Below are positions 6,461-42,532 of a DNA stretch of 64,000 nt, piece after piece. Source of the DNA: Liolophura sinensis (lineage: Eukaryota > Mollusca > Polyplacophora > Chitonida > Chitonidae); contig NC_088296.1 of NCBI RefSeq assembly GCF_032854445.1, positions 15,737,485-15,801,484 on the forward strand. Reading direction: 5' to 3'. The translations under genes and the position numbers were made by a program. The notes beneath the pieces were generated by a model. The model was not told where the DNA came from and ran no database searches. It worked only from the letters and a program-made list of their open reading frames with translations. Position 1 is the stretch's first letter; every line of letters begins with the position of its first letter.

Positions 6461-6466
6461 TTTATT
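6461..6466 (-). terminator. Candidate poly(A) signal of the cytokine-like gene
   Basis: The plus strand reads TTTATT, i.e. AATAAA on the minus strand, about 990 bp after the TAA stop at 7457. It is the nearest canonical signal I noticed downstream of the last coding exon. The resulting 3' UTR would span about 6450-7456. Confidence 0.35.
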
Positions 6467-7456
6467 TGCTATTTGTAATGGTTTAAAGTTTTAACTGTCA
6501 CAATATTGTAAACTATATGAGCCCATGTCATGCTGTATAAATGAAAGTGAGTAACGCCTTCAGTTTTAAGTGGGCTCGTCTGCACATAAGAAAAAGATAG
6601 AGATGTGTATGGAGTAGTCAGTCGTCATTCGGTGTTCGTCATGTCGAAATGTGAGATACTGTGTTCTCAGCCGTCACTGGAAATGCTGAAATGTAAAGTG
6701 ACAGAAGAATAAAAGTGACAATGAAACGGAATCAGATTTTTTGATATAGTTCTTGGCTCCAGTGTCCATTATAGTTGTGTGGCGAACAGCTCTACAGAAG
6801 GACGGCAATGTTGATCATGTTGTTGTTGGTTTTTCATGGAGGGCTTTTTTGATCGTAAACAGGTCATTTTTTTTGTTCTGTGTTGTCTGAGCATAAAATG
6901 AGAGTTTTCGGTTCTTTTCAGGTTCCGCTATCAATCGTCGTGCAGTTGAACTTCCGTAGTTCTTATTCTCCGCAGCTTAACCACTATCAGCAGGTGTTAA
7001 ACTTCACGAGGACAACACATGCCGGTGATTCAAAAAGAGAAAATTCAAACAGGCAAAATTCACGATGACAAGCAAAACAGAACGGATAACGGAATCACAC
7101 GAAACACCTTTAAACATTTAGATCAAAATTGGCGTTGTTGAAGGCTTTTAGGTCACATGCATGGATGTCACAGTTGACTGATTTTCACGCGCAAAGTAGG
7201 TGTGTTTTCTGCTTTGTGTTTTGAAACTCTGATATTTTCGCCAATTCATCAAATGACGTGATACTCTGAGCCAAAACACTGTACTGATACATGGCGTTCT
7301 TAAAACTACTTTGAATTTGACAAATTTACAGTTCTACATTCCTTGTCTTGTAGAAAACTGAATTCCAGACCATCAAAAGAAATCTAAACAAATTCGATTG
7401 TCTCATAGGCCTAGCTTACAATTTACGAAGAACTGAGATGACGTATAAACGTCAAT

Positions 7457-7822
7457 TTACCTTTCTTCTCCAGAAACAGACGCCACAAATTCCTCCATTT
7501 TCTGCAGGTAATTATCAAGGTCCCGAAAGAGCAAGTAGACCCAGACGTCCAATGCGCCTGCGTGGTGCACCCGTCTCATCTGTGCCAGTTCTCGTACAAG
7601 TTGCGTGAGAGCCTCGATGTCGATCTGGACGGTCTCTTCCAGCGCCGCGTGCAATGTGCACAGAACGTTGTTAAGATGGCCGCGAACAAAACAGAGTTTT
7701 CTCTCGAGCGTATTGAGCCTGTGGTCTCGAAGGGCAATCTCATGTTGCTCTGCTTCATTCACAGACACGTAGAAACGTCTGAGATCATCCGCCATGAGAT
7801 GGAATGGTCTGTGATCCGTAGG
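7457..7822 (-). CDS. Cytokine-like gene, exon 3 (remaining helices, stop)
   Basis: The acceptor CTGTTACTCTGTTCCAG precedes CCT ACG GAT in phase 0. The exon gives 121 codons and a TAA stop. Codon use is GC-rich and non-repetitive. It encodes PTDHRPFHL, then MADDLRRFYVSVNEAEQ, a long helix with two cysteines (ERKLCFVRGHLNNVLCTLH), and the last helix WVYLLFRDLDNYLQKMEEF followed by only about ten residues. The stop overlaps a potential donor (AG then GTAAAT), so splicing to a further exon cannot be excluded. Confidence 0.75.
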   Translation of the reverse strand, partial: PTDHRPFHLMADDLRRFYVSVNEAEQHEIALRDHRLNTLERKLCFVRGHLNNVLCTLHAALEETVQIDIEALTQLVRELAQMRRVHHAGALDVWVYLLFRDLDNYLQKMEEFVASVSGEER

Positions 7823-10800
7823 CTGGAACAGAGTAACAGTTAGGTATTTATTGTTTAGATTAGTTTGAATCCGACTTTATTAGCGGACTGATGGCGGTTT
7901 TAAGGCGTGATATTTAAGTACATACATGGTACAGCAGACTGCTCCAGACTGTAGCGAATTCTGAACTATTGTGTTGCTGNNNNNNNNNNNNNNNNNNNNN
8001 NNNNNNNNNNNNNNNNNNNNNNNNNNNNNNNNNNNNNNNNNNNNNNNNNNNNNNNNNNNNNNNNNNNNNNNNNNNNNNNNNNNNNNNNNNNNNNNNNNNN
8101 NNNNNNNNNNNNNNNNNNNNNNNNNNNNNNNNNNNNNNNNNNNNNNNNNNNNNNNNNNNNNNNNNNNNNNNNNNNNNNNAACTATTGTGTTGCTGTTAAG
8201 TGAAATATTCTTGGGTACGGCGTAAAACCGCAATCAAGTAAATAAACAATTAAAAAAAAGTAAGTAACAATCAAACCATAAACTTTACCACCGTCACATA
8301 AGGGAACTATTTTCTATGTATGGTGAGGGAATCAGACCGAACTCGCAAGGAACTACATTATACTTCGCCAGGTAGCCAACACATCTCATGACAGCAGCCT
8401 GTAACAGGCGAGAGCTGGGTTCGAACACACGTTCTCGTTGGCCCAGAACCATAAAGATGGCACAGAGTATAACGGTGACAACCACGACTTACCACGGACT
8501 GTTCTCTCAGATCTACCGGAAGTCTTGTAAGATTGACGACACTAGCTGCACCTGAGTAAGTGAGGTTCACTCGACTCTCCTAAAAAAAAAGATTGATTGA
8601 TTGTTGTTTAATGGCCCGGGCACTCAGCTGTTCAAGCCCGGAGCAAAACCCCAGGCTTTTGATAAGTTACTGACCAACTTTCTGACGACGTACCATTGGA
8701 CCGTCACCGAAAGTAATGTAATTAAGACTTACAGCATAGATAAAAAAAAACAAAAAAAAAAAAAAAAAACAGAGAACCGACGATAGTGTGATAGATGTCA
8801 AATGGTCACGAGTAACCGGCGAAATACGGCCTCTTTTTTTTAAATTTTAAATTTTAAATTTACCTCATTTAGTGTTTTATTCTAACTCTTCATGTAAATA
8901 AATAAATAGTAGCAAATTACACACCCTCTAGCACCATGGCTTAAGCAGAATTAGGTAAAAAAAATGTAGTGAGAATATATGCAATTTATTAGATGTTAAT
9001 AGTCTAGAATTACTCAAAACTTATAGCGGTTGTGAGACGCCTTGAGATCTTGACTTTCTGCTATTTAGAAGGACTTTGAGAATAACGACTCTTAAAACAA
9101 AGTATTTGTGTTGTACAGTGGCCACGGAAAAGAAATATTTACTTCTTGTTTGTTTTATGAAGTACATATGGTAAAATTAGAAGGGCATGCTTAAAAGTAT
9201 ATTATTCTCCGCCTTGCCAGGTAACACTGATACACAGTACAGAGGTATTTGGTATTGTTTTTATAAACGAAAACAGTTTTCACAAGAAGTATAGGGACGG
9301 AACTTGCGAACATGTGCTCAGTTTCTTTTTTTTATTCACATTCATAGCAATGAACTTTAAAAACGTAACAACACATTGTTTTATTGGCCCTCAGAGTTTA
9401 GGGACTACCTTAGACTGTACTGTGAGAGCAGGCATATGGGGCTGATTTCACAAAGACATCTCTGATTTAAGTAAAAATTTAAAACATTGTCACAATGTTA
9501 AGTTTTCGGCACTTGAAGTTGACATTTTGACACAGTTGTCTTAAGACAACATTGATGTGGCGGTCAAAATTTTAATTTACAGGAATCAAAAATAAGCTCT
9601 AAAATCATATTTCAAATGTTTGATTTCAGTCAAAACTGGCTTTTTTGGAATCGGCCCCTGTTTAATTGATTAATGCTCAACACCGACCGCAAAAACTTTC
9701 CTTTCCATGAAGCAGGTAAGGTTTATAGGTGGTTGAAAAATTAGCGCTCCTAGAGCTGCTGGAAAACCTTCCCACGTACAGCCGGAGAGGAAGCTATCAT
9801 GAGCTGGACTTGAACTCACAGCGACCGCATCGATGAGAGGTTTCTTTGTCATTATGCTGCACTAGGGCGTTAACCAACTGAGCCACGGAGGCCCCTGGCG
9901 CCCGTAGCGAACCATAAACCTTCCCTGGGTACATTACAACCCTCCTGACAAAGCCACAACAAAAGCAACAACGGCTAGATTCGAACATGCAACCTCACTG
10001 GTCAAAGGCCTGATAGTTACAACATTTCAACGACTAAACTATCTACACAGAAGGCTTCGAGAATAATATTTTACCTTTAGAAATATAAGTACATCTAAAC
10101 CTTTGAGGTTATGGTCAATGAAACTGGAAAAAAGTTTATGAAAATGGAACTTTGTTTTTAGTGAATGAACAAAACTGTGCCAATAGCTTTGGGTCTTTTC
10201 GAAAATAGACGACATATAAATCCTACTATTATGGAATTTTAAAACAAAACTCTATAAAGTGTTATGACCTGACACACAATATATGAACTGTAGAGCTCTC
10301 ACGGCTGTAGCAGTCAGGGATAGGTTCCGATTAATTGTCATAAAATAAGACTAAAGATTGTAAAAAATAATTTAGTTTTAAAAAAAAATTTTTTTCATTG
10401 CTAAAGTAAACTAAATTAGCTAAAGTTTGAAATTATATATCAGTCTGAAACTTTTTTCTCAATGCACTTTACTTTCTCAATTTTTTGAAATCATAAATAA
10501 CTTACATAAAGGGATTTCAGCTCTCTCACTGCTTGGCGCAAGTAACCCAAGTTCCAGTGCAACGCAAACGATGTCGCTAGAGTTGTCGCCCTTGTTCCAG
10601 GAGGAAGTCTCGTGACGTTGCATGGCGTGACGGACTCGTGGGTCGCCTCAAATGGGTCTCTGCCAGCCTGGTCATGACATCTGTGACGAGAGTTAGCTCC
10701 ATGGCGACGATCCCTCAAAAACTGAACTATAGGCGGATAACTTCCGAGAAAAAATCCGGACGCGGACGACGATGTGAGAAAATGGTTTGTTATAATGCTT

Positions 10801-12596
10801 AGCGCTAAAAGAATCCAAAAGTTTCCTGGGATGAAAAAAGAAAAAAAGAAGAAAGAAATTAAAGAAAATAACCCCTAATTTCCCATAAAGCCAAGAATTT
10901 AACTTCAAACAGGACATGAACTCAAAGAGATCATGAATCCAAACAAGGAAGCATCGTGTTCATTTTTATTATATTTAACAGTAATAAGGGCAAAGCTAAA
11001 ACTCCTCAAAACTAAAGTAAGTCAATCATTTTAAAACAGTTATAAGCCAGATAACAGAAAATAATAATGAATATACAGTCAAATGTTTGACTGATAATTT
11101 GATAAATCTGACTCTTAGTTACCAATCACTCCATCGATTTAACACATGTAACATTAACCCTTTCCAAGATTCCTCGTAATATACTAAATATAACCTTAAA
11201 CAAGAAATTCACAGACTAACTGGGCAAAGTTAATCTTAACTGTTTCCCGGATCTACTGAACAATTCCAATAATAACACGTAGTTTCACACATACACTCTA
11301 TTCTTCATTTTGGATACCAATTTTAATTGTCAACTTGTTCCAACAAGACCCAACTTAATTGTTTCATTGACTAAGCAAACAAGACCCAACTTAATTGTTT
11401 CATTGACCAAGCAAACAAGACCCAACTTAACTGTTTCGTGAACCAAATGAATAAAACTAAACTTAATTGTTTCATAGAATACGTGAACAGAAGACCAAAC
11501 TTAATTGTTCCATGGATTAAGTGGACAGAAGTCCAAACTTAATTGTTTCATGGATTAAGTGAACAGAAGACCAATCTTAATTGTTCGATGGATTAAGTGA
11601 ACAGAATACCAAACTTTTATTGTTTCATGTATTAAGTGAACAGAAGACCAATCTTAATTGTTCGATGGATTAAGTGAACAGAAGACCGGACTTAATTGTT
11701 TCATAGATTAAGTGAACAGAATACCAAACTTAATTGTTTCATGGATTAAGTGAACAGAAGACCAAACTTAATTGTTCCATGGATTAAGTGAACAGAAGAC
11801 CAAACTTAATTCGTGGAACAAATGAACAAAGCCAAACATTTTATTATCAATTTTTTTATTCTCTTTTAACGTCTTGGAGGGTATTTTTTCTATAAACACG
11901 AAATCGAAAAATCATAATGCTTGAATATATGCGATAGTTCTGCGTCATATTGGTGGAGGGCAAGTGGTCTCCAGGAAACATCACAAGGGAACACCGTCAA
12001 CTATATCGCTATTAAGAACCCAAAACATAGTGAATTTAAAAAAAATTCCCGTCATGACTTAGAGTCCAGCTATAAGTCCAGCTGGTTTGTTCTCCGGTCG
12101 TACATGTGAAGGACTGTGAACAGCCTGCGGATTGTCGTGAGTTTCCCCGGGGCTATGCCCTCTTTTCTCCAACCATAAAGCTGATCGCCGTCGTAAAAGT
12201 GAAATATTCTCGTAAAATACTAATAAAATAATTACATGGCTAGAAAATTTCCCCTATGAGAATGAAACTGGTCTTATGTTGGTGTGATTTAACGATTAAT
12301 CATTCACTAATCAAATAAAGCGCATTAACAACTCTTCTGTACAGCTTATATAGAAATCTAAATTCCCGCATATTTCCTAAACGTACATATAATATTTTAA
12401 ACATACATGTACTATTTCTAAGGGGAAAATATCTTCTACACTTACAAGGTAGCTTACACTGGATTTCCGAATCAGAGATGGTAAATACCAATAAAACTAC
12501 CTCATATTCCAAAACTCTAAGCACATGCAGACAAGGATCAAATAGTAGTGAAATCATAAAACCTCTATACTTACTGAAACCAGGAATAGGTGACAT
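7457..12596 (-). CDS. Secreted four-helix cytokine-like protein (three-exon gene model)
   Basis: Joining 12596-12575, 10825-10506 and 7822-7457 gives 708 nt and 235 residues. The product starts MSPIPGFR followed by a hydrophobic core NFWILLALSII and a likely cleavage after Ala-Ser-Gly at about residue 31. An R-D-R-R furin-type site is at 45-48, cysteines are at 57, 76, 158 and 169, and a sequon NVT is at 77-79. Helix-prone segments lie at about 86-114, 119-143, 146-178, 182-198 and 203-230. The last one contains WVYLLFRDLDNYLQKM, which resembles helix D of IL-6-type cytokines (L-x-R-x-hydrophobic-x-x-aromatic-Leu-Gln). Known: vertebrate LIF/CNTF-type genes have a tiny first coding exon, phase-1 then phase-0 introns, and a last exon with the remaining helices; this model has the same plan. 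Caveat: the link between the first two helices is short for an up-up-down-down bundle. If correct, it would act as an extracellular ligand, perhaps for a gp130/Domeless-like receptor (inference). Confidence 0.6.
7980..8179. other. Assembly gap of exactly 200 N
   Basis: The run of N is flanked on both sides by the same 16-mer AACTATTGTGTTGCTG (7964-7979 and 8180-8195). A round-number gap with identical edges suggests placeholder padding between contig ends that overlap or end in a repeat. It lies within intron 2 of the cytokine-like gene and does not touch the proposed coding exons. Confidence 0.9.
8186..8255 (+). mobile_element. SINE-A 3' fragment
   Basis: AAGTGAAATATTCTTGGGTACGGCGTAAAAC-like tail plus an A/T-rich end match the last part of SINE-A. 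The rest may lie in the gap. Confidence 0.7.
8493..8551 (-). CDS. Candidate alternative exon in intron 2 of the cytokine-like gene
   Basis: On the minus strand CCTCACTTACTCAG precedes a 59-nt segment that ends before the strong donor GTAAGTCG. Entered in phase 1 it stays open for 19 codons (AASVVNLTRLPVDLREQSV) and leaves in phase 0. These are the same phases as exon 2, so it could replace exon 2 between exons 1 and 3. It shares N-(V/L)-T-R-L-P with exon 2 but has no signal peptide. Included after exon 2 in phase 0 it would hit a stop after 12 codons. It may be a real alternative or poison exon, or a chance splice-site pair. Confidence 0.25.
8589..8720 (-). mobile_element. SINE-D fragment, antisense
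   Basis: GATTGATTGATTGTTGTTTAA is followed by a Gly/Pro-codon-like CCCGG block and GATAAGTTACTGACCAACTT. The same order is seen at 27895-28055. A poly-A run follows at 8741-8769. Confidence 0.5.
9752..9895 (-). mobile_element. SINE-A 5' part, antisense
   Basis: It carries the tRNA-like head (complement of TGAGCCACGGAGGCCCC) and the core up to the CTGGAAAACCTTCCCACGTA block. The 3' tail is missing. It lies in intron 2 of the cytokine-like gene. Confidence 0.85.
10506..10825 (-). CDS. Cytokine-like gene, exon 2 (signal peptide, propeptide, first helix)
   Basis: The exon is preceded on the minus strand by an unusually strong polypyrimidine tract of about 40 nt ending CATCCCAG and followed by the donor GTAAGTTATT. 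It is 320 nt long, two bases plus 106 complete codons, with no stop, entering in phase 1 and leaving in phase 0. It is clearly richer in GC and CpG than the surrounding introns. It encodes the signal-peptide core, the RDRR site, two cysteines, the NVT sequon and the first long helix ending in VRELKSLY. Confidence 0.75.
11330..11830. repeat. 36-38 bp minisatellite in intron 1 of the cytokine-like gene
   Basis: About 12-13 units share CTTAATTGTTTCATGGATTA and GTGAACAGAAGACC, with drift from the left copies (CATTGACCAAGCAAACAA) to the right copies. The array is the main content of the 1.75-kb intron 1. Confidence 0.9.
12113..12225 (+). mobile_element. SINE-A 3' fragment
   Basis: It matches the core from CAGCCTGCGGATTGTCGTG through the AAGTGAAATATTCTCG block. 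The tRNA head is absent. Confidence 0.75.
12575..12596 (-). CDS. Cytokine-like gene, exon 1 coding part
   Basis: ATG at 12594-12596 opens seven codons plus one base (MSPIPGF, then A), followed by the donor GTAAGTATAG, which is near consensus. The 22-nt coding length and phase-1 intron match exon 2 exactly and create an Arg codon across the junction. The frame continues open upstream to about 12698, so a longer N-terminus is possible. This Met is preferred because it places the hydrophobic core at the usual distance for a signal peptide. The 5' UTR and promoter were not located; CCAAT-like boxes occur at about 12749-12770. Confidence 0.55.
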
Positions 12597-12699
12597 GTTC
12601 TGTGTCTCTGGAACAAATCTCTCCGTCTTTGCCCTGTAGTCTGGTGAAAACTTTACTGAAAATCTGCCTAAAATACTTTTCCAAAGCGCAGTGCCCACG

Positions 12700-13715
12700 T
12701 TTCAAAGTGAAGCCATATCACCGGGTTTAATATTTCACGACATTTCATTGGTTTCTTTATTCGCCCAATCACCTTTATCTTTCACAGTTTCACCGGATCT
12801 GTATTCTGTTCTCTGTTTCATCTACCAGCCTCACTTCAGATTTTCCGACTCACTAATCAGCCGTGCTCATGAACTGGTCAAGCGTTGTGTATACGGATTA
12901 TTAAATATGACATCCGCAAGATATCCAACTTTTCTTAACAGTTGATTCTAACACGCATGTCTCGTGTTTTCAAAAACGCCGCTTTGATTTAGCTGAGCCG
13001 AGTGTGGGCAGCTTATTACTCTATCCTCCAGTGATGCGCAAGTGCAAGGACACAGCAAAGCTCTATTTAGGTATATTTTCTTCAGCATAACCCAGAGTTT
13101 GACCCAGTTTTCTGCTTTGTTCGTTTCCATTTTTGCACTTTATCGTCATAAAGTTATTCATCTTAATTACAATTGCATATAACATCATATTCAGCGTGTC
13201 ATTGTCCAAGTTTTTTTTTAAATGTACAAATTGCGTCCATAATGTAATAATGATAAATTTCTGACGTAAGTCGTTTTTTTAAACGCGAAATTTACTTCAT
13301 TTGCACACTCCTTAAAAAATACATGAAAAGTTTGGTTTTTATTTGTTAATAAACAGTTTTGTGGGTGTTCTAACTTATAAAGGTACAAAAAGCTTGTCAG
13401 GGTTCTTCTTGGCGCGTAAAAGTGGCTTTCAATTGGATATTTCTGACAGGGTCTCAACGGTCAGGCTGCAAAGTGAGCAGTCAAACCAACTTTGTTGGAG
13501 GGTGTGGGTGAGAATGTGATGTAAAATTTGCCTCAGAAAAGAAATTTGCCTCAAAATATCTTTTTTTTTTCACTTTTCGCATGGCTTTCTTCACTTTCAA
13601 TAAAATTATAATCTTTGTTCTAGAATTGCTCCCCATGTACCCTTAAGAAATCAGATGCGCTTCTCTTTGCAACAATTTCATTCTGCAAGTATTTCTATCA
13701 AAAGTGTCTTATCGC
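12700..13715. other. Upstream flank of the cytokine-like gene
   Basis: No supported exon. CATTGG (12749) and CCAATCA (12766) could be CCAAT boxes. TTTCAAAGTGAA at about 12699 faintly resembles an interferon-response-type element. No TATA box was assigned. Short frames here are AT-driven. Confidence 0.3.
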
Positions 13716-13830: not shown

Positions 13831-14267
13831 ACATTTTCCAAAATGGTATACGTTGTAATATATTTTTAAATTATCGTACATGCACTAAAAGGGGACTCTG
13901 GAGGAAGCGTACCAACGGCTATTGCACGGTGAAACTCTACTTGCTGAAAAATACCCTACATGGTTCTGAGAAACCTTGCCTTCAACTGAAAATCTGAAGA
14001 AAGTAACCCAGAGTTCTTCGCTTACCTGTAATCACAAACTATGCTGAGCATTAAGACATTTTAGGGAGCAATTCGAGATGCTTTTCCTCGCTTTGGCCGA
14101 TTTTATAATGCTGAACTGCATGGTGGTGCTCTGACAGCATGTAATAGTTGGACTGGTATGACGTAATTTGGCCGAAAATATTCATAAAATCAGCTTCATT
14201 AACTATCAGTTTTTGTCATAGCACTGGTCAGACTTATGTGCCCCTCTTTTAATTTATTTCAACAGCT

Positions 14268-14448
14268 CCTCTTCGGACCTACGTGGGAAGGTCTGCTAGC
14301 AAAACCTCCAGATGGGCATGAGTTTCCCCCTGGCTCTGGCAAGTTTCCCGGCTCTCACCATAATGCTGGCCGCCATCGTGTAAGTGCAATATTCTTGAGT
14401 AGGGCGTAAAACAGCAAAGAAACGAATAATTAAATAAATAAATAAAAT
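14268..14448 (+). mobile_element. SINE-A, head-truncated
   Basis: It runs from CTACGTGGGAAGGTCTGC through CACCATAATGCTGGCCGCC to GCGTAAAAC and an (AAATA)n tail. Confidence 0.85.
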
Positions 14449-38882: not shown

Positions 38883-41800
38883 TCACTTAAAAATTTTCCG
38901 CGCGAACCTACGCAGCCCATTCAAAATTCGCCTACCCCTTGATCTTCGAACAGGCGAATCAGAAGGAGAATGATAGGACAATTCGTCATGGCTTCTCCCC
39001 CCAGAAGCGTTGAAGACCGCGTCATCGTAAGCGGGCGGAGGATTGGAAAGGTACTCCTCTCCGGGTGGTCCCCAAGGTAGCTGTAAAGACAACCTGTTAT
39101 TGACTCTATGATCTTGAAAACTTGCATAGTCGAAGTGGTCTTGGTGAACGGATATGGGTCTAACGGCATCGTCATACGAAGGCGGCATTTCCGGTAGGCC
39201 TGGCATCCCGACGGGAAATAGATCAGTGTAGGAAGGCGGGTGCTCTAAACCGTAATCTTCCAGGTTGAGAATTTCGAATTCCAGGAAATCCTGCTCCGTT
39301 CTACTTCGGACTGGTAGCGGCGGACGCCTGTGATGATCGGGCGTTTCTAACGTGCCAGATTCCCGTGTGGATCGGCTGCGAACTTCGAACAACGTCGAAA
39401 TGGACAGAGGATGTTCGTCGTCGGATGAGTCGCCGAGACCGGGATATGGCGAAGGAGGACGGTCACACATTCGGCTCGGCGCAGTCACTGGCAGCAGCAG
39501 CTCCTCTTCTTCTTCGTCGTCACTGCTGTCCAAGAACCCGTCTTCATCGTCGGCGTCCCCATCTTGCGCCGTAACAACACCAAGGCGTGTCAACAGATCG
39601 TCCATTGAGATCGTATCGCTTGAATCCTCGCTAGAACCCGCGTAGTTATCTCCTGAGTCCGACTCATCCTCAGTCTCCGAATCGAAAGAGTCAGAGTTGC
39701 CGAGATTTGGACGTTCCTCCATGATGCAATCCTCCGAGGAGGAATCACTGTCAAGAGAATCTGAACTAAAGCTGTTGTAAAAATCCTCATGAAAACGTTC
39801 TGCTGTACGATCAGAAAAAGAAGTCTTGGGAACTGTCACAGCTTCGTCCACAGATAGGTTCATGGGTTCATCGCCTGTGGATTCCCGGGTTTTGGTGTTT
39901 GCAGCTTTAACATTTTCGTAAGTCGCTAAAGCGACGGACTGCGCTTCCGATGAACTTTCTGCTGGTCTGCACTGCATGTTTTCAAACTCAATCCTATTCT
40001 CTGTGGTGCGAGGCAAGTTTTCGTAGATGATGGCTGGGTGCTCAGTCATCAAAGTGCTCGCCAACTGACTAACCCGATCATCACAACGGGCAACGGGCTG
40101 TGAACAATTCTTCATGTGCGGTTCACTGAGAGATCTGATCAGGAGAATCTTACCGCTCAAACTTGCACTACGTCTTGGAGGTTGTGGTAAAGAGTATGAA
40201 GGGTCCGACAAACGTCGTGCAAATCGTTTCACTCGGTTACTCGAAGGGTTGCGTCTTTCAACATCGTCTGCAGTAGGCTTTGCTATAGAGGCTTGGTTGC
40301 GTTCAGATATCTGGTTGAGAAAGTCAGGCACATTGTTTTTTGTTCTGGAAGACCCAAACCTTGCATGCTTAATAAAAAGGCCAGAGTCCGAAACGGGTCG
40401 TGTGTAACGCCATCCTGTTTCGCGTGACATGGGCGATTCGAACTGGCCTCGCCTCTTCGACGGACAGTTCATGCGGCACAATCCCACGAAACTTGGCGTG
40501 CTTTGGCTGCTTCCCAAGGCATTTACAACCCGGAGATTTTCTGCAGTTTGAGAGGTAGGGAAACTCAGACCGGGTTGTCTTCTTACAACAGGATAGGCAC
40601 TGCGGAGTGATGAGACACCAAGGTTCACTTTACTTCCTGTTTTAACGCCCTCGCGATGATCATCTTGTCTACGACCCCACCACGAGCTACTTCCAGGCAT
40701 TGCGGAGAAGCTATTACTTTGTCTTAGCATGTACGGTCTTCCGTTTTCTGTCTGCGTTTGCCGTGAGGTACAAGAACATCTCGGACTTCCACTTTCAAGG
40801 TGACCAGAGCTGGATTCCCCTGGGAAAAAGTTAGACCGCTGTTCAAGTTCGTGAAGGCTTAATGGTCGTTTAGTGCGTCGGCACGTATGAAGAGGCTCTG
40901 ATGACTGCTGCCAGCAGCAAAAACGATCAGCAGACACCGGTAAAGCCTGAGGACGATTAGAAACTGTAGGAGCACTTTGAAGTGGTCTCTGTGGAGACGC
41001 TCCTTGCACTGGGTCTAAAAAGCCTTGCAGGCTTACGAAGCGCTCTGCTGGAGTGGAAGAACACTTATAATTCTGGGAGCTTCGTGATTTAACCATACCC
41101 CGATTCCGATCAAAATTTTGTGGAAGCCGGGGTTTTACATGTTGAATCAAACGTGCTTCTCGGTCTGCGTTCTTGATCTCAGTGTTCCTGGACAAGTCGT
41201 CTATACCAGCAGAATGACCTGATGGTAGGACCTGGGGGGCTAATGAATTTGACCCTGTTGAAGATGCGCTTGAATCTGAAAAAACGTCACCCATATTGTC
41301 AAAATCAACATTTGCAAAAGGCGTCACATTGAGGGCACTGACAGAACTCACAGACAATCGCGAAGTGTCATAAGGAGACATGGCAAGATTGTTTAGCTTG
41401 ACATGTGTGTCTTCAGGCCTTACAGGAGCACCTGAATTTTGTACTGGGGTAGAGGTCCCATAATCTCCATCGGTAACACTATCAGGCAACACATCCCGTA
41501 AACATCCAGTCTTGTTGCTGTTCAATATTTCAGAGGATGGACTCAGCATGGCTTCATCTTTCTGAGATGCATCATTGAGCAAGAAGTCAGATTGAGATTG
41601 AGGACTGCAGACTTTATCCGAGTCCCTCAAGGCGAGGTACTGGGTAGAACCAAAGCCGTCATCTTCCTCTGAGAGAGAGTCAATGCTGCCTTCGCTAAGC
41701 ACAACATTGGGAGAGGCCTCAGATGATGGCGAGGGAGTTTCTTCGGAAGATTCCATTTGTTGTTCAGCAGTCCCATACTTCAGATAGAACTGCCAGGCAC

Positions 41801-42373
41801 TCTTTGACTCACATGGTGTAGGACAGTCTACAATGGGGCCCTTTAAGATAACCAGATCTTGTGATCTGGAGCTGCCAGTAGAAGTTGTAGAGAATGGAAT
41901 GGTTTCAGTGTTATTATTTGGAGATGTTATGAGAACTATCTTTGATGATTTGTCCGTAAGCCCTTGACCGGAAGAAGATCCAGCTGAACTCGATGGCCTA
42001 TTGGAAGAACTGTCCATTACCCTGACAGACGATAATTGGTCTGTGCCAAGGGAACAAGGTCTTCTGCCATTGAATGCATCAATATTTACATACGCATTTT
42101 CCGGAAGTGTGTCCAGGGATAGAACCGGTTTCTTCCTAGGCATGGGATCTATAATCGTACTTGCATTGACATACTCGTTTTCAGTGGCACTTTGGCTCTG
42201 ATGGTAGTTCACGCCTTGACCGTTCTGTGGGGTTATGTTAGAAAGGTTCCTGTGTCCCTCCATACTTCCCGGTGGTTGCACACCTGACCCGTCTCTCTGA
42301 ATCCCTCTATCCACTTCAACCACAGGGTAAAAGTCACAGGGAGCTTCCAAGTCTGAGGCACTGTCTGTATTGC
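38883..42373 (-). CDS. Terminal exon of a PPxY/YxN-rich scaffold-like protein, 5' incomplete
   Basis: The exon starts after the acceptor TTGTTTGCAATCCTCAG, enters in phase 1, is open for 1,162 codons and ends in TGA. Most is low-complexity Ser-rich sequence and probably disordered. Counting from the first full codon: tyrosine motifs YVN at 67 and 94 and YEN at 783 and 818 fit GRB2-type SH2 ligands; RQTQT at 537-541 fits dynein light chain LC8; RRLSDP (719-724) and RSLSEP (746-751) fit 14-3-3 sites; PMNLS (836-840) resembles a CtBP ligand. A Ser/Asp/Glu-rich block spans about 865-955. PPLPVR (1017-1022) fits a class II SH3 ligand. PPSY (1045, 1063) and PPAY (1112) are WW-domain ligands typical of NEDD4-family recruitment. 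The last 20 residues (RGRRILNGLRRFARKIFK) form a basic amphipathic helix that may bind membrane. No catalytic or transmembrane segment is visible. If the upstream exon is non-coding, Met37 (strong context) would be the start. The family was not recognised. Confidence 0.85.
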
Positions 42374-42532
42374 CTGAGGATTGCAAACAAATGTATTTTT
42401 AACAACATAAGTCAAAAGCAAAGGCAAACTATTGAAGAAGAAAGACTTGGGCAGACTGTGGCGCACAAGGGAAACGATTACATCATAGGAAGTGAACCCA
42501 CAGCAGTGAGTGTTTGTAATATGTAAACTTAA
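42374..42532. other. Intron start upstream of the scaffold exon
   Basis: Minus-strand intron end with polypyrimidine and branch-like sequence (TGACTTAT at about 42410). The apparent frame continuing above 42373 is intronic. Confidence 0.6.

Follow-up and report, generated by a model that had tools for sequence, protein, structure and literature searches.

A 64-kb stretch of the genome of the chiton Liolophura sinensis (the window, that is, the whole of the DNA analysed) carries on its minus strand, between 12596 and 7457, a four-exon locus. This locus is very probably a true gene, and the searched database has no annotated protein for it. The best reading of its product is a secreted class I long-chain helical cytokine, a view that we hold with slightly less than even confidence. 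We class the gene by the presumed action of its product, which would be that of a class I cytokine, and do not count it as a proven IL-6/LIF family member; this is a working hypothesis. Its strongest link to the class I cytokines is the gene layout. The first coding exon is tiny and ends in phase 1, and the later introns are in phase 0, an arrangement typical of class I long-chain cytokine genes. The likeness to LIF/IL-6-type genes lies in this layout, not in overall sequence. The exon structure itself was observed in the window, whereas transcription of the locus is something that we infer.

Exon structure of the chiton gene

The model derived from the window sequence comprises four exons of 22, 320, 87 and 366 nucleotides (nt) with intron phases 1-0-0, joined at 12575/10825, 10506/8579 and 8493/7822, and the acceptors are AG dinucleotides with pyrimidine tracts upstream. 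A sequence-only reading of this DNA had proposed an undescribed molluscan gene of three minus-strand exons (12596-12575, 10825-10506 and 7822-7457; GT-AG, phases 1 then 0) encoding 235 residues with a signal peptide followed by four cysteines. These exons were reproduced and the signal peptide was correctly recognised, the cysteines were found at positions 57, 76, 187 and 198 of the longer product described below, the source is indeed a mollusc, and the gene is undescribed in the sense given above. The three-exon model was incomplete, however, as an exon at 8579-8493 had been missed. This exon 3 is open over its 87 nt and has phase 0/0; a run of T and an AG precede it, and the donor GTAAGT follows. 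The 29 residues that it contributes, ESRVNLTYSGAASVVNLTRLPVDLREQSV, include two N-glycosylation sequons and fall in the link between helices A and B, which resolves the caveat, attached to the shorter model, that the first inter-helix link was short. The 235-residue version would be an exon-3-skipping form. As a candidate, the locus is stronger than the earlier description made it. First exons starting at 12870 were tried as alternatives and ruled out by stops at the junctions.

The four-exon product has 264 residues. Its signal peptide is followed by two cysteines and helix A, after which a loop of about 33 residues leads into helices B and C; a short helix then precedes helix D. Secretion is suggested by the hydrophobic core of FWILLALSIITNHFL and by an SAS/G site, both recognised by inspection and not by a signal-peptide predictor. 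The best 19-residue hydropathy is 1.29, at the start of the chain, and it does not exceed 1.04 after residue 31, which leaves no other membrane span. Cys57 and Cys76 precede helix A, and Cys187 and Cys198 lie in helix C. The helices were placed largely with AlphaFold, run on single sequences and exon by exon (exons 2 and 4), not on the spliced chain, with local confidence given as the predicted local distance difference test (pLDDT). The elements of the gene and of its predicted product are as follows.

12575 to 12596, minus strand: coding part of exon 1, 22 nt, MSPIPGF plus one base, phase-1 donor GTAAGTATA; frame open upstream only to 12701
10506 to 10825, minus strand: exon 2, 320 nt, with the rest of the signal peptide, Cys57, Cys76, the sequon NVT at 77 and helix A as far as Tyr114, the last residue of the exon; donor GTAAGTTAT, phase 0
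10758 to 10825, minus strand: second part of the putative signal peptide (to residue 30, SAS/G), from inspection of the translation and hydropathy
10506 to 10601, minus strand: predicted helix A, residues 83-114, interrupted after Tyr114 by intron 2 (AlphaFold on exon 2, amphipathicity)
8493 to 8579, minus strand: exon 3, 87 nt, phase 0/0, first part of the A-B loop, with sequons at positions 119 and 130
7457 to 7822, minus strand: exon 4, 366 nt with the stop, predicted helices B, C, short C-D helix and D; Cys187 and Cys198
7718 to 7810, minus strand: predicted helix B, residues 148-178 (AlphaFold, pLDDT 88-91 for exon residues 11-40; its separation from helix C is presumed and is absent from the model)
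7634 to 7711, minus strand: predicted helix C, residues 181-206, with VRGHLNNVLCTL resembling LIF LRGLLSNVLCRL (AlphaFold and anchored comparison)
7568 to 7618, minus strand: predicted short C-D link helix, residues 212-228 (AlphaFold, amphipathicity)
7472 to 7561, minus strand: predicted helix D, residues 231-260 (AlphaFold, amphipathicity, PDB sequence search)
6461 to 6466, minus strand: candidate AATAAA polyadenylation signal, about 1 kb past the stop

Simple pattern searches found no TATA, NF-kB or STAT site in 12597-13700 and one ATTTA in the 3' region.

The reality of the gene was assessed by two scans. Internal exons with a GTAAGT donor, an acceptor of at least 70% pyrimidines, an open frame and a length of 60-450 nt were sought on both strands of the window; seven candidates were obtained, two of which are exons 2 and 3 of this gene, and the only other one with a guanine-plus-cytosine (GC) content of at least 0.49 lies at 14266-14379 on the plus strand. 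The second scan assembled phase-compatible chains that began with a tiny ATG exon and ended in an open exon no shorter than 300 nt, and was run also on random strands generated by a second-order Markov model. It ignored stops at exon junctions, for which the real chains were rechecked. Not one of the 100 random strands gave a four-exon chain and two gave a three-exon chain, while the real minus strand gave nine chains and the plus strand none. Two of the nine fall within the gene at 38.9-42.7 kb and seven use at least one exon of the cytokine candidate; three chains on the minus strand have four exons, of which two begin at 12870 and are interrupted by junction stops, so that the model from 12596 is the sole one with an uninterrupted frame. 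Moreover, the GC contents of exons 2, 3 and 4 (0.497, 0.494 and 0.515) stand against a window mean of about 0.398 and are matched by 4%, 13% and 1%, respectively, of segments of the same size. Codon-usage scoring, trained on one Ser/Pro-rich open reading frame (ORF) of a neighbouring gene, failed to separate true frames and was uninformative.

Database searches yielded a single relative. A search of the 609-Mb genome revealed no second copy: of the four candidates scored, three were exons of the gene itself and the fourth, elsewhere, was a match at chance level (E 1.14). None of the 1075 candidates considered in a protein search with the spliced chain reached E <= 10, and no match to the candidate was found in the prokaryote genome contigs scanned. 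The exon-4 frame alone gave one match among 20 candidates, a 112-residue frame from another assembly (P0001; longest contig 1168 bases), which is identical at 107 of 112 positions, without gap or stop, has the same end and keeps both cysteines. P0001 may come from L. sinensis itself or from a sister species, and may represent either DNA or RNA. The expression of the chiton gene may be low, narrow or absent, because the annotated protein of a neighbouring gene is in the database and that of this gene is not.

Sequence comparison and competing explanations

In LIF and CNTF, a phase-0 intron lies inside helix A after a Tyr, and no intron precedes helix D. A MAFFT alignment of seven human cytokines places a Tyr in one column in five of them (CNTF, CLCF1, CT-1, LIF and OSM), and this column is what we take to be the residue that precedes the intron in LIF and CNTF. 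The last residue of chiton exon 2 is Tyr114, which was used as the anchor of a register test. In this test, LIF helix C (LRGLLSNVLCRL) matched chiton VRGHLNNVLCTL at shift -3, with p of 0.001 for 1000 plain shuffles and 0.000-0.001 for pattern-preserving ones; with any register allowed, p was 0.017 (300 shuffles). For CLCF1, the narrow search range gave a match of helix A at shift 0 (p 0.074 and 0.133), and a match of helix D at shift -10 appeared in the wide range only (p 0.004 and 0.015). All these anchored values need a several-fold discount, since four families were tested at two range widths.

The predicted helices are also amphipathic to various degrees (p 0.05 for A, 0.13 for B, 0.20 for C, 0.016 for the short helix and 0.02 for D, as compared with 0.75 in the loop and 0.59 in the N-terminal part), with moments of 0.33-0.66 against 0.10-0.22 in the other segments measured. 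The exon-2 model has a helix at exon residues 75-105 (residues 83-113), reaching the exon end, with a mean pLDDT of 60.9 and values of 66-80 over most of the helix. The best exon-4 model (mean pLDDT 70.0; predicted template modelling score, pTM, 0.38) contains helical stretches at 148-206, 212-228 and 232-260, which makes part of the C-D link helical. Mean pLDDT in the remaining four models is 46.6-53.8. These single-exon models are too weak for a verdict on the fold.

A number of results weigh against a cytokine. Pairwise comparisons with 10 human class I cytokines were null or marginal (shuffle p 0.018-0.047 for LIF, 0.042-0.077 for growth hormone, 0.033-0.142 for CLCF1 and above 0.14 for the other seven), and anchored CNTF and CT-1 were not significant in either the narrow or the wide range. 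An hhalign profile of seven vertebrate cytokines, with FVRGHLNNVLCTL as the best local stretch, scored the chiton protein at 16.1, which was equalled by 14 of 200 shuffles; in the leave-one-out control, all seven vertebrate members beat all 60 of their own shuffles, IL-6 barely (21.9 at 3.5% probability). No Pfam family matched the candidate protein over the cut-off, and PDB sequence searches with the whole chain, helix C, helix D, and helix A plus loop had no cytokine among the matches listed. Foldseek with the exon-4 model listed six matches (best E 4.8), none of them a cytokine, nor was one among the matches listed by VIA-align with this model. The best exon-4 model fuses helices B and C into one helix (residues 148-206, local pLDDT falling from 89 to 72); at the place where the B-C turn is presumed (exon residues 33-37), the model is helical with pLDDT 89, which counts against a clean bundle and against the up-up-down-down topology assumed in the sequence-only reading. 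Besides, the searched database holds no annotated protein (76-462 amino acids) for the gene except the frame P0001, and no transcript was seen. Finally, it is common for secreted proteins to have their signal peptide split by a phase-1 intron.

The cytokine-like layout and helices claimed from the sequence alone are thus retained in part: the phases 1-0 and the intron inside helix A stand and the helices are roughly in place, but homology to IL-6-type ligands is not supported by the seven-member profile. The further claim that helix D matches the IL-6-type pattern was not borne out by the PDB sequence search, in which four matches were listed for helix D alone, none of them a cytokine, the best being designed four-helix bundles (9ugr, E 7.7e-05); this match may be read as generic amphipathic patterning. 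'Cytokine-like' is a good working hypothesis and not a result, because the profile is not significant, helix D matches designed bundles and B and C are fused in the model. According to the portion of PMC13203501 consulted, members of the IL-6 family are not conserved even across vertebrates. The failure of the profile is therefore to be expected for a true protostome member, and equally for an unrelated helical protein.

An unrelated protein of this kind, namely a real secreted helical chiton protein such as a lineage-specific hormone, carrier, mucus or egg protein with helices that arose independently, is a doubtful alternative, yet one to be taken seriously. It would account for the lack of a significant match to the cytokine profile and to Pfam, for the generic patterning suggested by helix D, and for the failure of protein searches to find a homologue beyond one close relative. 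It leaves aside, however, that the tiny phase-1 exon, the phase 0/0 A-B-loop exon, the helix-A intron after Tyr and the cysteine split jointly fit the pattern of vertebrate class I genes. Exon 4 might also encode one long helix or a coiled-coil hairpin, so that the protein would not be a compact four-helix bundle. The single helix at 148-206 in the best AlphaFold model, in which pLDDT is 88-91 to exon residue 40 and then 79 and 72, agrees with this, as does a weak match to the CCDC92 coiled coil that stays under the cut-off (E 0.11). We nevertheless consider it unlikely, given that the model is built from a single sequence, that its pTM is low and that the other four models are poorer still; single-sequence predictions often fuse adjacent helices.

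That the locus is no gene, and consists of chance open frames or a decayed gene, appears highly improbable. The lack of an annotated protein in the searched database and of any transcript seen, the uninformative codon-usage test and the open antisense frame of exon 4 are compatible with such an origin, but none of the 100 random strands reproduced a four-exon chain, a contig of another assembly preserves the terminal frame with no gap or stop, and exons 2-4 exceed the window mean in GC, even if 13% of 87-nt segments reach the value of exon 3. Least probable of all is an interferon-like class II helical cytokine similar to oyster CgIFNLP. All-phase-0 coding introns are a wider rule for class II helical cytokines, and the first chiton intron has phase 1. 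Teleost type I interferon genes are described, in the part of the source consulted, as having four phase 0 introns (PMC4929537). The idea derives its appeal from a class II-type helical cytokine having been claimed in a mollusc, as stated in excerpts of two papers (PMC9756803; PMC8218723).

Surroundings of the gene in the window

Intron 3 contains an assembly gap, and the introns contain repeats.

7980 to 8179, no strand: assembly gap of 200 N inside intron 3 (window sequence)

The same 16 bases (cagcaacacaatagtt) flank the gap on both sides, and because of this its true length could be less than the 200 N shown, or there may be an overlap that was left unmerged. A tandem array with a unit around aacaattaagtttggtcttctgttcacttaatccatg occupies 11345-11845 in intron 1 (self-matches 78-82%). 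Dispersed repeats were seen both in introns 1-3 and in other parts of the window; 9755-9900, 12074-12237 and 8197-8259 are examples, and a dozen or more further places have them. Their pieces are 27-162 bp long, mostly 70-89% alike, and end short of all four exons. No other part of the window matches the exons at E <= 1e-4, in contrast to the introns with their two classes of repeat. A 133-codon frame lies open on the plus strand at 7442-7843, antisense to exon 4. Further along the minus strand, 38883-42398 is a large exon of LOC135462703, which encodes an uncharacterised acidic Ser-rich protein with PPSY/PPAY motifs repeated near its end. This ORF forms part of an annotated L. sinensis protein, with 100% identity over the residues searched (500-1171), and its product has no Pfam match at E <= 10.

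Proposed function and relation to known cytokine systems

On the favoured reading, the gene would be transcribed and translated into a 264-residue precursor, from which the signal peptide would be removed to leave a mature glycosylated protein of about 27 kDa before glycans. The fold of the mature chain would most likely be a bundle of the four helices A-B-C-D, the A-B loop being long, and disulphides might pair Cys57 and Cys76 with Cys187 and Cys198 of helix C and so pin the bundle. Released by one cell, the ligand would bridge gp130/Domeless-type receptor chains on another and activate JAK-STAT. Exons of the STAT domain are present in this genome (on C1). A search of the same genome with PF09240 (IL6Ra-bind) gave no receptor match and is uninformative, as the control genomes gave none either.

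The matter bears on a gap in the literature. In the portion consulted of a 2026 BLAST survey, IL6R, JAK and STAT are reported together in Mollusca without an IL-6-type ligand, IL-6 family cytokines are found only in vertebrates, and the molluscan ligand is left open (PMC13203501). Among the matches listed in open-licence PMC papers there was no molluscan class I ligand, which is no proof of absence. The four-exon candidate makes the question of the missing molluscan ligand testable at the bench. A wider interpretation would see in it a molluscan cytokine of the LIF/IL-6 type whose gene keeps both the A-B-loop exon of IL-6 and erythropoietin and the fused B-D exon of LIF and CNTF, so that a long-chain class I gene with phases 1-0-0 would predate the protostome/deuterostome split; this is possible, although we regard it with some doubt. 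If the cytokine candidate is right, gene layout, in the sense of intron phase and intron place within a helix, can reveal cytokines missed by sequence search; the protein searches gave no relative beyond one near-identical frame.

The LIF gene opens with a tiny coding exon that ends in phase 1; a phase-0 intron in helix A follows, and helices B-D are encoded in the last exon. Among LIF, CNTF, CLCF1 and CT-1, the chiton gene is similar to LIF, CLCF1 and CT-1 in the tiny phase-1 first exon, which CNTF does not have, and to all four of these genes in the phase-0 helix-A intron after Tyr and in the joint coding of B-D by the last exon. LIF has cysteines in its N-terminal part and in helix C, more in total than the chiton protein, which likewise combines N-terminal cysteines with a helix-C cysteine located in the LIF-like stretch. 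In contrast to LIF, CNTF, CLCF1 and CT-1, the chiton gene has an extra 87-nt A-B-loop exon, and its product has a helical C-D link, lacks a helix-D cysteine and shows no significant profile similarity to this family. A separate phase 0/0 A-B-loop exon is a property of the IL-6, G-CSF and erythropoietin genes, and that of erythropoietin also measures 87 nt; these genes have a further intron between B/C and D, whereas the chiton B-D region is one exon. Excerpts of two papers describe the CLCF1 gene as having three exons (PMC8780587) and IL-6 as having a short helix in the C-D loop (PMC7378365), and a short C-D helix is likewise predicted in the chiton protein. Among invertebrates, oyster CgIFNLP is also a claimed molluscan helical cytokine, set apart by its description as resembling class II. 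The insect Unpaired (Upd) proteins, ligands of Domeless, differ from the chiton protein in that the latter matches no Pfam family over the cut-off, but by role the chiton protein would be their counterpart, a secreted ligand of a gp130-like receptor feeding JAK-STAT.

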